Assembly (NCBI GenBank): GCA_016196065.1
Contig: JACPYL010000012.1
Span: forward strand, 62,001 to 126,000
Reading direction: 5' to 3'
From: Acidobacteriota bacterium
Lineage (GTDB): Bacteria > Acidobacteriota > Terriglobia > Terriglobales > Acidobacteriaceae
DNA length: 64,000 bases
Part shown: positions 10,356 through 41,651 of the stretch, piece by piece
Layout: the number at the start of each line of letters is the position of its first letter
Position numbering within the stretch: the first letter of the stretch is position 1
Position numbers and translations under genes: made by a program
The notes under the pieces: generated by a model
Database searches by the model: none
Told to the model about the DNA's origin: nothing
What the model saw: only the letters and a program-made list of their open reading frames with translations

Positions 10356-10640
10356 CTCCAGCCGCGAAGCGGCGGGGCAGGAAAGCCCGGCACGGAAGTG
10401 CCGGGTAAGTTGCCGCGAGAAGGTTGAGTCCTTTTAGGGACGGCACCCGTGGTGCGACGAAAGACTCCAGCCGCGAAGCGGCGGGACAGGAAAGCCCGGC
10501 ACGGAAGTGCCGGGTAGGTTGCCGCGAGAAGGTTGAGTCCCTTTAGGGACGGCACCCGTAGTGCGAGGAAAGACTCCAGCCGCGAAGCGGCGAAATATTA
10601 CAGCCCACGGCGCAAGCCGTGTGTAGCAACGCGAGATTGA
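10356..10640 (+). repeat. 109-bp tandem repeat of palindromes upstream of khpB
   Basis: Three copies begin at 10356, 10465 and 10574 with CTCCAGCCGCGAAGCGGCG. Each full unit contains three hairpins: CCGCGAAGCGG, GCCCGGCACGGAAGTGCCGGG-type, and CCCTTTAGGG. The last copy switches into the GCCCACGGCGCAAGCCGTG element. Together with 10183-10335 this fills the whole 613-bp interval between yidC and khpB. Confidence 0.85.
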
Positions 10641-37872: not shown

Positions 37873-38190
37873 GTGAGCGAGCCGAAAACACATTTCGAAC
37901 AGATTCCCGTAGAAGTGGTGAAGAAGATTGCTGCCATCCTTCCGGCAAAGGAACTCCCGAACGACGATGCAACCGGCGATGACACGGCAGAGATCGAAAC
38001 CGAGGGCAAAGTTACCGCTGCGGACGAACGTTGGCGCGAAGTAGCGCAGAAAGTCCAGCACGAAGCGGACCCGCAAAAGATGATCGGATTGGTGCAGGAA
38101 CTTATTGCCACATTTGACAACGAAAACAAACGCCTGGCGCACAGGCAGTACCCTGCAAGGCAGTCCGGCGCCTCCGCGGAGCAATCATGA
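37873..38190 (+). CDS. Hypothetical protein translationally coupled to the Crp/Fnr regulator
   Basis: A 105-residue acidic protein (VSEPKTHFEQIPVEVVKKIA, then EIETEGKVTAADERWREVAQ) without signal or membrane segment. The GTG start at 37873 follows AGGAGA with ideal spacing; an upstream in-frame start at 37825 lacks one. Its stop overlaps the start of the regulator (ATGA at 38187-38190). The central part, KVQHEADPQKMIGLVQELIA, resembles small acidobacterial proteins of unknown function. The role is unknown. Confidence 0.7.
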   Translation: MSEPKTHFEQIPVEVVKKIAAILPAKELPNDDATGDDTAEIETEGKVTAADERWREVAQKVQHEADPQKMIGLVQELIATFDNENKRLAHRQYPARQSGASAEQS

Positions 38191-38852
38191 GGGCCGTTGT
38201 GACCGCGAAGAAACTGGCCAAATTCGATCCCGACGCTTTCCTTTCTACCATCGCTGGTGGCAGAAAGGTTGCAACCTTCCTCAAAAAGCAGGCGATATTC
38301 CTGCAGGATGATTCCTCGGACGCTGTTTTCTATATCCACAAAGGAAAAGTAAAACTCAGCGTCGTGTCAAAGAGCGGGAAGGAAGCCACCATCGGCATTC
38401 TAGGTGAGAAGGATTTCTTCGGTGAGGGGTGCCTCACGGCGCAAGCTGTGCGTCTGTGCTCCGCGACCGCGCTCACCGATTGCTCGGTTATGCGGATCGA
38501 GAGGAAAGCCATGATGGAAGTGCTTCACCGGGAACACATGTTTTCCGATATGTTCGTCGCGTATCTGCTGACGCGCAACATCCGCTACGAGGCGGACCTG
38601 GTGGACCAGCTCTTTAATTCCAGTGAGAAACGGCTGGCTCGTGTTCTGCTTTTGCTGGCTCGCTTTGGCAAGAACGAAGCTCCGGAGGTTTCAATTCCCA
38701 AGATCAGTCAGGAAACTCTGGCGGCGATGGTGGGCACGACTCGTTCGCGGGTGAGCTTTTTCATGAACCGGTTCAGAAAGTTAGGCTTCATCCAGTACAA
38801 CGGCGTGCTTGAGGTGCACAGCTCACTTCTCAACGTTGTTCTTCACGACTAG
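38187..38852 (+). CDS. Crp/Fnr family transcriptional regulator
   Basis: A 221-residue regulator with a cyclic-nucleotide-binding-like beta-roll (about 20-130: IHKGKVKLSVVSKSGKEATI, GEKDFFGEGCLTA) and a C-terminal winged helix (about 155-220: SQETLAAMVGTTRSRVSFFM, the recognition helix, followed by NRFRKLGFI). The phosphate-binding cassette residues RxA/S of cAMP-binding Crp are not clear and there is no N-terminal FNR cysteine cluster, so the signal is unknown. It is coupled to the preceding small gene by a 4-bp overlap. Confidence 0.95.
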   Translation: MRAVVTAKKLAKFDPDAFLSTIAGGRKVATFLKKQAIFLQDDSSDAVFYIHKGKVKLSVVSKSGKEATIGILGEKDFFGEGCLTAQAVRLCSATALTDCSVMRIERKAMMEVLHREHMFSDMFVAYLLTRNIRYEADLVDQLFNSSEKRLARVLLLLARFGKNEAPEVSIPKISQETLAAMVGTTRSRVSFFMNRFRKLGFIQYNGVLEVHSSLLNVVLHD

Positions 38853-39370: not shown

Positions 39371-39465
39371 GAAATAAAAATGGCGCAGTCTCGTTGGCTG
39401 CGCCATCCCGACTGACGGTCATTTCGGGGGAAGGCTGGACCGTAGCTCGTTCGACCCCTTCGGCT
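39371..39465 (-). ncRNA. sRNA-like element A (sibling of element B)
   Basis: Read on the minus strand: a hairpin CGGTC/GACCG with the C-rich loop CAGCCTTCCCCCGAAAT (about 39414-39440), then the terminator stem TGGCGCAG/CTGCGCCA (39381-39405) followed by TTTTTATTTC. TTGAACAGAC lies at 39506-39497 upstream. The structure, order and spacing match element B 147 bp away. The ends are estimates. Confidence 0.6.
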
Positions 39466-39517
39466 GAAACAAAGATAGAATCCTGGCAGATATTCTGTCT
39501 GTTCAATCTTGCACACG

Positions 39518-39605
39518 AAACAAAAAAAGGCGCAGTCACGATGGACTGCGCCCTTCCAGAGTAGCGGTCTTGGGGAAAGACCGTTGCTTGACTCTCAACC
39601 CAATG
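39518..39605 (-). ncRNA. sRNA-like element B (sibling of element A)
   Basis: On the minus strand: hairpin CGGTCTT/AAGACCG with loop TCCCC (about 39565-39583), then GGCGCAGTC/GACTGCGCC (39529-39552) followed by TTTTTTTGTTTC, a textbook intrinsic terminator. TTGAACAGAC is at 39640-39631. No start codon with coding potential lies between. The C-rich loop could pair with Shine-Dalgarno sequences. Confidence 0.65.
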
Positions 39606-39773
39606 AACAGTACAAGGCGTACGAATTCCCGTCTGTTCAAAATTAGACAGCTCCGAATATTTGTACCGCCTAGCAGACGCCTTGACCTCACTCAAGACCC
39701 GTAATCCCGACGCCCACACTCAAGAACTGTCATCCCGACGCCCACACTCAAGAACCGTCATCCCGCCGCCTCA

Positions 39774-39822
39774 CTCAAGAACTGTCATCCCGAACGGAGT
39801 GAGGGATCTGCAGTTCCGCAGC
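39774..39822 (+). repeat. TGTCATCCCGAACGGAGTGA repeat, copy 1
   Basis: CTCAAGAACTGTCATCCCGA continuing into CGGAGTGAGGGATCTGCAGT and TCCGC. The second copy at 39963 differs at a few positions. Shorter versions of its first half (CTCAAGAACTGTCATCCCGA) occur at 39690-39775. Confidence 0.85.
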
Positions 39823-39959: not shown

Positions 39960-39962
39960 GCC

Positions 39963-40055
39963 TCGCTCAAGAACTGTCATCCCGAACGAAGTGAGGGATC
40001 TGCAGTTCCGCCGCGCGCTGACAAACTGCAGATCTCGCGCCGCTCGGGATGACAG
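39963..40055 (+). repeat. TGTCATCCCGAACGAAGTGA repeat, copy 2 with inverted remnant
   Basis: A second direct copy (39963-40012) is followed by CTGCAGATCTCGCGCCGCTC and GGGATGACAG, an inverted partial copy, so this end is a large imperfect hairpin. Confidence 0.8.
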
Positions 40056-40474: not shown

Positions 40475-41599
40475 TCACTTCCCCCGCAACATTCCCACTA
40501 CCCGGTCAAAATCTTCCAAAGTCCCATATTCAATCGTGATTTTCCCTTTCCCTCTGCGATCCCGAATCCGCACCCGCATACCCAGGACGGTCTCCAGCGA
40601 CCGTTGTGCTGCCCGCACATTCGGATCCACCCATCTCGCCCCTTTGCCCGGACCACGATCCCCTTCCGGTCGCTCCATCGGGACATTCATGTCCAGGACC
40701 GCATCTTCCAACTGCAGCACCGACATCTTCTTCTTTACGACCAGCGCCGCCAGCTTTGAGATCTGCGACTCGTCATGCAGCACCAGCAACTCGCGCGCAT
40801 GGCTATACGTCAGATCACCGCGCTCGATCAGATACTGCACATCCTCCGGCAACTTCAGCAGCCGCAGATAATTCGATACTGTTTCCCGCGACGTCCCCAC
40901 CCGGCGTCCGATTTCTTCCTGGGTCAAACCAAATTCCGTGCTCAGATGCGCGAACGCCTGCGCCTGCTCCAGGCAATCCAGATCCTGCCGCTGCAGGTTC
41001 TCGACAATCGTCATCTCGGCTGCTTGCTGTTCCGACACGCGCTTCACGATTGCCGGAATCGTCGACTTCCCAGCCAGCTTCGAAGCCCGCAATCGCCGCT
41101 CGCCCAGGATCAGCACATAGCGCCCGTCCAATCCCGGACGCACCACAATCGGCTGAATCACTCCTTGTACCTGGATCGACCGCGCCAATTCCTTCAGCAA
41201 ATCATCATCAAATCCTGTTCTGGTCTGATGCGGATTGTTCTCGATCGCATCCAGGGCCAACTCCATCGGCTGTCCATCCGGAGCTCTCTGCGCCGCCATC
41301 GCCTGCAAATCAACCGATTCGGGTTGCGTCGAGTCGCCAGGGGAGCCCGAAGCCAACACCGTAGCGCCGGCGCCCTCGCCGGCTGTCGCGGGGGCACCCT
41401 GCCCGCGCAGACGATCTGCATCAGACACAGAACTCGCGTGGGAATCATCCTTGCGCGCGCTTTGCGCCGTGGTGGGATCGGTCACCACAACTCTCGGCCC
41501 CGGTAACAGCGACTCCAACCCGCGCCCCAAAGCCCGCCGCTTCTCCACGGCCTTCTCCGCCACCTTCTCTACCCCAACCTTCTCAACAGGAATTGCCAT
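40475..41599 (-). CDS. parB: Chromosome partitioning protein ParB
   Basis: A 374-residue ParB (CTP-dependent parS-binding clamp). After RRALGRGLESLL (about 22-33) there is a long unconserved linker (35-110), then the N-terminal CTPase domain with NPHQTRTGF, GERRLRASKLAG and ENLQRQDLDCLEQAQA, the helix-turn-helix LTQEEIGRRVGTSRETVSNY, and a C-terminal dimerisation domain. Part of the linker (residues 66-85, GQGAPATAGEGAGAT) is encoded by palindromic DNA like the REP-type repeat. ATG 41599 follows GAGAGGAAG; the upstream TTG 41617 is rejected. Confidence 0.97.
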   Translation of the reverse strand: MAIPVEKVGVEKVAEKAVEKRRALGRGLESLLPGPRVVVTDPTTAQSARKDDSHASSVSDADRLRGQGAPATAGEGAGATVLASGSPGDSTQPESVDLQAMAAQRAPDGQPMELALDAIENNPHQTRTGFDDDLLKELARSIQVQGVIQPIVVRPGLDGRYVLILGERRLRASKLAGKSTIPAIVKRVSEQQAAEMTIVENLQRQDLDCLEQAQAFAHLSTEFGLTQEEIGRRVGTSRETVSNYLRLLKLPEDVQYLIERGDLTYSHARELLVLHDESQISKLAALVVKKKMSVLQLEDAVLDMNVPMERPEGDRGPGKGARWVDPNVRAAQRSLETVLGMRVRIRDRRGKGKITIEYGTLEDFDRVVGMLRGK

Positions 41600-41651
41600 C
41601 ACGCTTCCTCTCCGCAACGATTTCCGAAAAGCTCACATCACCCGCCAGATT

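Follow-up and report, generated by a model that had tools for sequence, protein, structure and literature searches.

What are the two short units that are repeated on the minus strand between parB and a Crp/Fnr-family gene in a genome of the Acidobacteriota, and how might they be switched on and act? The window is a stretch of 64,000 nucleotides, in which the original prediction had placed two tandem minus-strand sRNA candidates with C-rich loops. Both units, A (upstream) and B (downstream), are present at that place, with their terminator repeats 147 nt apart start-to-start and their TTGAACAG boxes 134 nt apart. Each contains the CGGTC/GACCG hairpin and the GGCGCAG/CTGCGCC stem followed by T residues, and in the predicted fold each exposes a C-rich loop (TCCCC in A, CAGCCTTCCCCCGAAAT in B). 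The order of parts common to A and B is a palindrome, a -10-like hexamer, a leader, a two-tier hairpin and an intrinsic terminator (Table 1); the terminator of B was absent from the output of the consensus terminator scan that listed that of A. One part had been misplaced: TTGAACAGAC, first taken as a piece of the RNA, instead makes up the right half of an operator, itself a palindrome, that precedes the putative promoter. These features support A and B as candidate tandem sibling sRNAs, apparently free-standing genes of roughly 80–95 nt. Our preferred reading, to which we give a probability of about 65%, is that they are sibling sRNAs activated by a Crp/Fnr paralogue and acting by the C-rich loop, probably at ribosome-binding sites. 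Its parts that are supported, on sequence grounds, are the operator, the spacing of the -10 box, hairpin 1, the terminator, the lack of a conserved reading frame and the existence of a family. A mechanically called ORF of 209 aa spans both units; a coding reading was dropped because spacer and loop lengths in relatives differ by non-multiples of three. Just upstream of the pair lie repeats of ~28 bp (CCTCACTCAAGAACTGTCATCCCGA...), four in tandem at 39686-39797 and one at 39961-39989, which resemble an intergenic repeat family.

Table 1. Features of the sRNA locus, with positions numbered from the first letter of the window.
Feature	Position	Strand	Basis or remark
Operator of A, CTGTCTAATTTTGAACAG, imperfect palindrome of CRP/FNR geometry	39633..39650	-	motif also before family members and other genes
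-10-like box TTGTAC of A, 17 nt past the operator	39610..39615	-	inferred promoter element
sRNA A, about 82 nt, start inferred	39522..39603	-	promoter spacing and terminator
Hairpin 1 of A	39558..39595	-	outer stem AGAGT/ACTCT, inner stem CGGTCTT/AAGACCG
Apical loop TCCCC of A hairpin 1	39572-39576	-	
Intrinsic terminator of A: 14-pair stem, T tract	39524..39557	-	terminator scan
Operator of B, GTGTGCAAGATTGAACAG, directly past the terminator of A	39499..39516	-	
-10-like box TTCTAT of B, 18 nt past the operator	39475..39480	-	inferred promoter element
sRNA B, about 93 nt, start inferred	39376..39468	-	folding, held-out model, promoter spacing
Hairpin 1 of B	39409..39449	-	inner stem ACGGTC/GACCGT, weak outer stem
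Loop CAGCCTTCCCCCGAAAT of B hairpin 1	39421-39437	-	
Intrinsic terminator of B, GATGGCGCAG...CTGCGCCATT, T tract	39376..39407	-	sequence and folding
Crp/Fnr-family regulator (Pfam cNMP_binding and HTH_Crp_2), convergent with the sRNA pair	38187..38852	+	proposed activator
parB	40475-41617	-	next Pfam-identified gene upstream of the pair

A blastn search of 61 genomes with the pair returned only its match to itself, and relatives surfaced through a terminator/C-loop script, a terminator pattern and covariance models. The script, run over Crp loci, and the terminator pattern revealed a second tandem pair in genome G010, 478 bp downstream of a Crp paralogue. Outside the window the pattern had five matches, of which only that of G010 is homologous; the others include G012:C25, G009:C106 and G014:C48, and a match at G012:C87 was rejected on reading as a plain gene terminator. 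The layout of terminator and C-rich loop was seen in no ParB locus (L036-L056) except that of the window, and in 17 of these 21 loci the sequence runs on downstream for 1200 bases or more past the matched part; parB synteny is no lead to relatives. A covariance model of four units, the window pair and the G010 pair (R1), gave matches at E ≤ 1 in 18 of the 24 genomes of the genus, the weak ones being on reading mostly an operator only or chance. Thirty-three candidate stretches were read by eye and 22 units were kept, including the two of the window. Further complete units were found at named Crp loci (L195, L159, L166) and outside the genus (L245, L246, L247, L251). The covariance-model search of acidobacterial genomes that had been suggested as a check thus yielded, with reading by eye, 27 complete units beyond the window pair, in relatives of Candidatus Sulfotelmatobacter (Terriglobia). 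Two of the members, L124 and L127, are weak, and L125/L261 is possibly a member whose hairpin is longer. Stretches left uncounted comprise L250, which has the operator and hairpin 1 and no clear terminator; R1 matches in which hairpin 1 was absent by reading (L125, L126, L128-L132, L114:5339, L122:7358, L131:7340 and L112:3722); and L228 (G012:C92:6265-6375), which is very like the unit of G012:C17 and has no operator. L228 is a possible decayed or re-wired copy of such a unit.

Two models built with the window excluded gave different views of the pair. The first (R3), made from 15 full units of the 22, ranked B (E = 2.0e-7) and A (1.7e-5) as its top two matches in their own genome, the third being at 0.0475; on the window alone, or with stricter filters, only B was listed, and A overlaps B by 4 nt. 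The discovery is not wholly independent, because the training units of R3 had been found via R1, which contained the window. In a family-wide search at E ≤ 0.01 R3 had matches in 18 of 200 genomes and 11 of 79 genera, part of which were read by eye. The second model (R2) was restricted to the RNA part of six of the 22 units. It returned 19 matches in 13 of 150 genomes, six of them its own seed and at least three (L224, L226, L227) not members by reading. R2 had no match in the own genome of the pair, and in the fetched loci (348 kb) it listed B at E = 0.09 and missed A. The RNA-only model sees B weakly and misses A, so the window pair has a divergent hairpin 1. The window RNAs would therefore be divergent members, if members, and their assignment is based largely on operator, terminator and layout.

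Folding of single sequences gave mixed values. Against dinucleotide shuffles, A folds with z = -4.3 (its 3' 80 nt with z = -4.9), while B gave z = -0.8 as a whole unit and -3.2 for its 3' 76 nt. Hairpin 1 on its own is weak by this measure, with z = -2.0 in A, -0.25 in B and a mean of -1.6 over 22 units, five of them below -2. RNAalifold on MAFFT alignments (one of which left out L117 and L118, with their long terminator loops, and L127) recovered the terminator only, and the structure was therefore named by hand and the sequences were re-aligned by model. In the R2-fitted alignment of 20 matches, which includes B of the window, omits A and contains one spurious row (L123, plus strand), 94.3% of 400 cells are paired. 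Double changes occur in 12 of 21 pairs (28 cells), a level that none of 500 shuffles attained; for further pair types five of 500 shuffles were as high, and slid registers were all far lower. All three helices covary, with double changes in 4/5 pairs of helix 1 and 3/6 of helix 2. Pairing by hand, for which L127 and a copy at L109 with the same hairpin 1 as L064u2 were left out, gave 189 of 205 cells, whereas 2000 shuffles averaged 169 and reached 178 at most; both this count and that of the model are biased towards structure by construction. Variants of the outer stem include GGAGC/GCUCC, CGAGC/GCUCG, GGAAC/GUUCC, AGAGU/ACUCU and CAAGG/CCUUG. Relatives thus preserve the stems, by covariation as well as by hand pairing, on which point the original prediction had staked itself. 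Its 'compensatory' CTT/AAG pairs, present in one unit, are a mere extension of the stem, and double changes are seen only across the family.

The best-conserved part is the terminator, which is kept in relatives as helix 3. It is conceivable on this account that the units are mere Crp-responsive promoters with insulating terminators, whose short transcript has no function, and the poor scores of the window RNAs with the RNA-only model point the same way. We nevertheless regard such a reading as distinctly improbable, given that hairpin 1 covaries in both tiers although it is unneeded for termination, and that a hairpin with such a loop, rich in C, is met again in L246 and L251, which belong to other genera. 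The apical loops, 27 of which were cut by hand, are 54% C when pooled; CCC or a longer run is present in 19 of the 27 (16 of 24 distinct) and absent from eight. One unit, L120:6006-6176, carries hairpin 1 twice, each with the stem GCGGCC/GGYCGU. This doubling, like the repeated binding sites of sponges, would suit sRNAs that titrate a protein or another sRNA instead of pairing at ribosome-binding sites, as would the better conservation of structure than of loop sequence. CsrA sponges are expected to show GGA in their loops, however, whereas these loops are C-rich, and no candidate partner emerged, so that titration seems unlikely and sibling sRNAs that pair through the loop remain the preferred reading.

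The sequence that leads into each unit bears on its control. The TTGAACAG common to A and B is half of the operator palindrome CTGTnCAAnnTTGnACAG and not RNA. Both operators are near-palindromes of 18 bp and of the form TGTnC-N6-GnACA, which is the 16-bp geometry of the CRP site TGTGA-N6-TCACA; that of A carries one mismatch to the palindrome. With at most one mismatch, the 12-letter palindrome occurs at eight places in its own genome (two exact, with A and B among the eight) versus one for the reversed control. One of these sites is upstream of a receiver-domain ORF (L069) and another lies between a second Crp paralogue and a small hydrophobic-looking ORF (L072) that has no Pfam match. The pattern TGWGCAATTTTGAACAG has 35 matches in the 24 genomes of the genus and none as a reversed control. 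Its context was read by eye at 30 of the 35: five lead into family units (L263, L267, L277, L282, which is the weak member L124, and L288), and eight into ORFs that begin like receiver domains, the start codon being 42-44 nt past the operator in five. Crp loci of named genomes (80 loci, 589 kb; nearly all from MAGs, mostly labelled Acidobacteriaceae, Acidobacteria, Terriglobia or Candidatus Sulfotelmatobacter) hold 64 matches at up to one mismatch and 13 exact ones (62 and 11 distinct), while 30 shuffled palindromes averaged 0.5 (maximum 3) and were never matched exactly. The 21 ParB loci (77 kb) hold three matches, two of which are A and B. A -10-like box follows the operator by 17-18 nt in 25 of 28 units and is absent in three; a sigma-70 consensus scan found no promoter at the units. 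Each window unit has what appears to be an operator of CRP geometry at an activating position, and this binding site probably belongs to a CRP-type regulator.

The neighbouring Crp/Fnr paralogue is, on indirect grounds, the likely activator of both units. In an alignment with E. coli CRP its recognition helix retains the Arg of R180, but Ser and Phe stand in place of E181 and R185; on the DNA side, the G of TG is kept in the operator and the second G of TGTGA is variable. This match of helix and operator is a concordance and not a test. The regulator alignment also places Arg at CRP R82 and no Ser at S83. A Crp homologue lies within 6 kb in 7 of 19 sRNA loci, versus 0.31 expected from the per-genome Crp numbers, and a simulation of 200,000 runs never rose above five loci. 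Without the window and G010, the loci of discovery, the count is 5 of 17. The 19 loci are not all independent, because some are orthologous or recently duplicated (L064/L109, L112/L121, L113/L114, L117/L118 and L122/L123), and at L115 the Crp copy is broken into four pieces. The number of Crp matches per genome correlates with that of units (Spearman 0.62, P = 0.0014, 24 genomes), the unit numbers having been entered by hand and the value being uncorrected for draft assembly and shared ancestry. Viewed from the regulator, only five of the 80 named Crp loci hold a member by eye (L198 with two units, L158, L195, L159 and L166), and most such Crp genes are therefore without a family RNA within the up to 4 kb examined on each side. 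Nine of the 24 genomes of the genus have no R3 match at E ≤ 0.05, and seven of these nine hold Crp-family matches. The remaining 12 of the 19 loci, some with short flanks, have no Crp gene within 6 kb, as might be expected if the sRNAs are as proposed and their regulator is another Crp-family or an unrelated dimeric protein, a reading that overlaps the preferred one in all but the activator. That the neighbour is not the activator is nonetheless doubtful in view of the 16-bp CRP geometry of the operator, the 64 sites at Crp loci versus one in the 20 ParB loci other than that of the window, and the clustering of seven loci with Crp.

The surroundings of the units are varied. Receiver-domain genes adjoin four tested loci (L064, L109, L119, L121), L111 has a gene for a universal stress protein beside it, and Pfam recognised nothing in five further ORFs next to units. 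The next downstream ORF, as called mechanically, shares the strand of the unit in 6 of 18 loci, and in G010 a receiver gene follows 170 nt on; a unit could in such places be a cis-acting leader or attenuator of the downstream gene. It is very improbable that this is their general role, since the next ORF is on the opposite strand in the other 12 loci, the window included, the G010 receiver gene has an operator of its own (L064:3922), and the units end in terminators. Spread as a mobile element was also tentatively set aside, the flanks of the loci sharing Crp genes and orthologous neighbourhoods; two duplicated segments of 326-357 bp were found in flanks (L117/L118 and L113/L114).

On the preferred reading of activated, loop-pairing sibling sRNAs, a Crp/Fnr-family protein, most simply the next-door paralogue, would bind CTGTnCAAnnTTGnACAG near -35, the position of a class II activator, with the operator about 40 nt before a start of transcription that would fall about 7 nt past a TTGTAA-like -10 box. 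The RNA would fold into the two-tier hairpin, exposing its C-rich apical loop, and would stop at the intrinsic terminator. The loop could then pair with mRNAs where these are rich in G, the likeliest places being Shine-Dalgarno regions, in a step proposed by analogy with RsaE/RoxS (PMC4409812). Such pairing would block translation or destabilise the mRNA, probably with Hfq, and the sRNAs would give the regulator a repressing arm. Sibling copies would allow an effect of dose or separate targets, as for other tandem siblings (PMC4211561). In this scheme transcription, the identity and sense of the regulator, the use of Hfq, the mode of pairing and the targets are what we infer. Hfq is above the Pfam cut-off in all 24 genomes of the genus (strong in 21, and weak inside a longer ORF in three).

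FnrS of Enterobacteria is an sRNA whose gene is activated by a CRP/FNR-family protein, and the half-site of FNR is TTGAT; the units here share with FnrS the proposed activation and differ in the operator half-site. The CcsR RNAs carry a C-rich loop motif. CcsR1-4, or cuckoo RNAs, of Rhodobacter and other Alphaproteobacteria are sibling sRNAs in a row beside the gene for a small regulatory protein, and RNase E releases them from a single precursor, which is transcribed under RpoH and carries a terminator at the 3' end (PMC10253847). The window pair resembles this arrangement in having several siblings in a row beside a regulatory protein gene; unlike CcsR, each unit has its own operator and terminator, the upstream gene is parB rather than DUF1127, and the layout of a single precursor is not matched. 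RsaE/RoxS of Staphylococcus and Bacillus has C-rich regions able to pair with Shine-Dalgarno sequences and is activated by the redox-responsive ResD/SrrA (PMC4409812). It shares with our units a C-rich region suited to such pairing and a (here proposed) activation by a regulator. It belongs to another phylum, the units have no Rfam match and their proposed regulator is of the Crp family; RoxS further has four C-rich regions in one RNA, unlike the units here. OmrA/OmrB, AbcR1/2 and PrrF1/2 are likewise adjacent pairs of related sRNAs (in S. meliloti, AbcR lies between regulator genes; PMC4211561), in Proteobacteria and with other regulators, and again no Rfam match links our units to them. Acido-1 (RF01686) and Acido-Lenti-1 (RF01687) are candidate non-coding RNAs of Acidobacteria (PMC2864571); the units differ from both, Acido-Lenti-1 matching eight other places in the window and Acido-1 none. 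The eight Acido-Lenti-1 RNAs score above the gathering score and lie within window positions 10360-63462; a run of three, spaced 109 bp apart, occupies 10360-10623.

No known family had been recognised from the sequence, and Rfam 15 agrees, with no gathering-score match at the units, whether in the window or at 10 loci of the family, and, below that score, chance-level values only (for example RF02278 at 22 bits versus a cut-off of 50). Literature searches, including Acidobacteria with RNA terms and with most subscription journals outside their scope, found nothing on the family, and no paper in the literature searched holds both 'Sulfotelmatobacter' and 'small RNA'. The family thus looks undescribed in Rfam and in that literature. 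Acidobacteria are common in soils and little was found on their small RNAs; here an sRNA family can be tested together with the motif of its operator, a candidate activator and other genes, receiver-domain ones included, that have this operator. If borne out, the family would add another case, apparently unrelated, of the C-rich-loop strategy of RsaE and CcsR.

One Crp/Fnr subfamily is expanded in the genus, with 0 to 14 matches per genome (fragments included) and at least one in 22 of the 24 genomes. We put forward as a tentative and rather improbable idea that repeated duplication has multiplied a cassette made up of the sRNA with its operator and a Crp-type regulator, in many cases joined by a receiver-domain gene. 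Such duplication would have led to genomes with as many as 14 matches to the Crp family and at least four sibling sRNAs, each cassette set having its own loop and targets, and the regulator family would be diversifying alongside private repressor RNAs. Short units of other kinds are also preceded by the operator. At L190:4784-4914, L199:3063-3190 and L204:5065-5193 there is a different one, with a terminator of the kind AAAAGCGCTCTCCTCTCCAGCAGGGCGCTTTT and a CU-rich loop, which L255 resembles. Another operator-driven short unit, in genome G002 at L114:5339-5470 and L280 (near 1501), has a CCAGCGC...GCGCTGG terminator and a CUCUCUC stretch.
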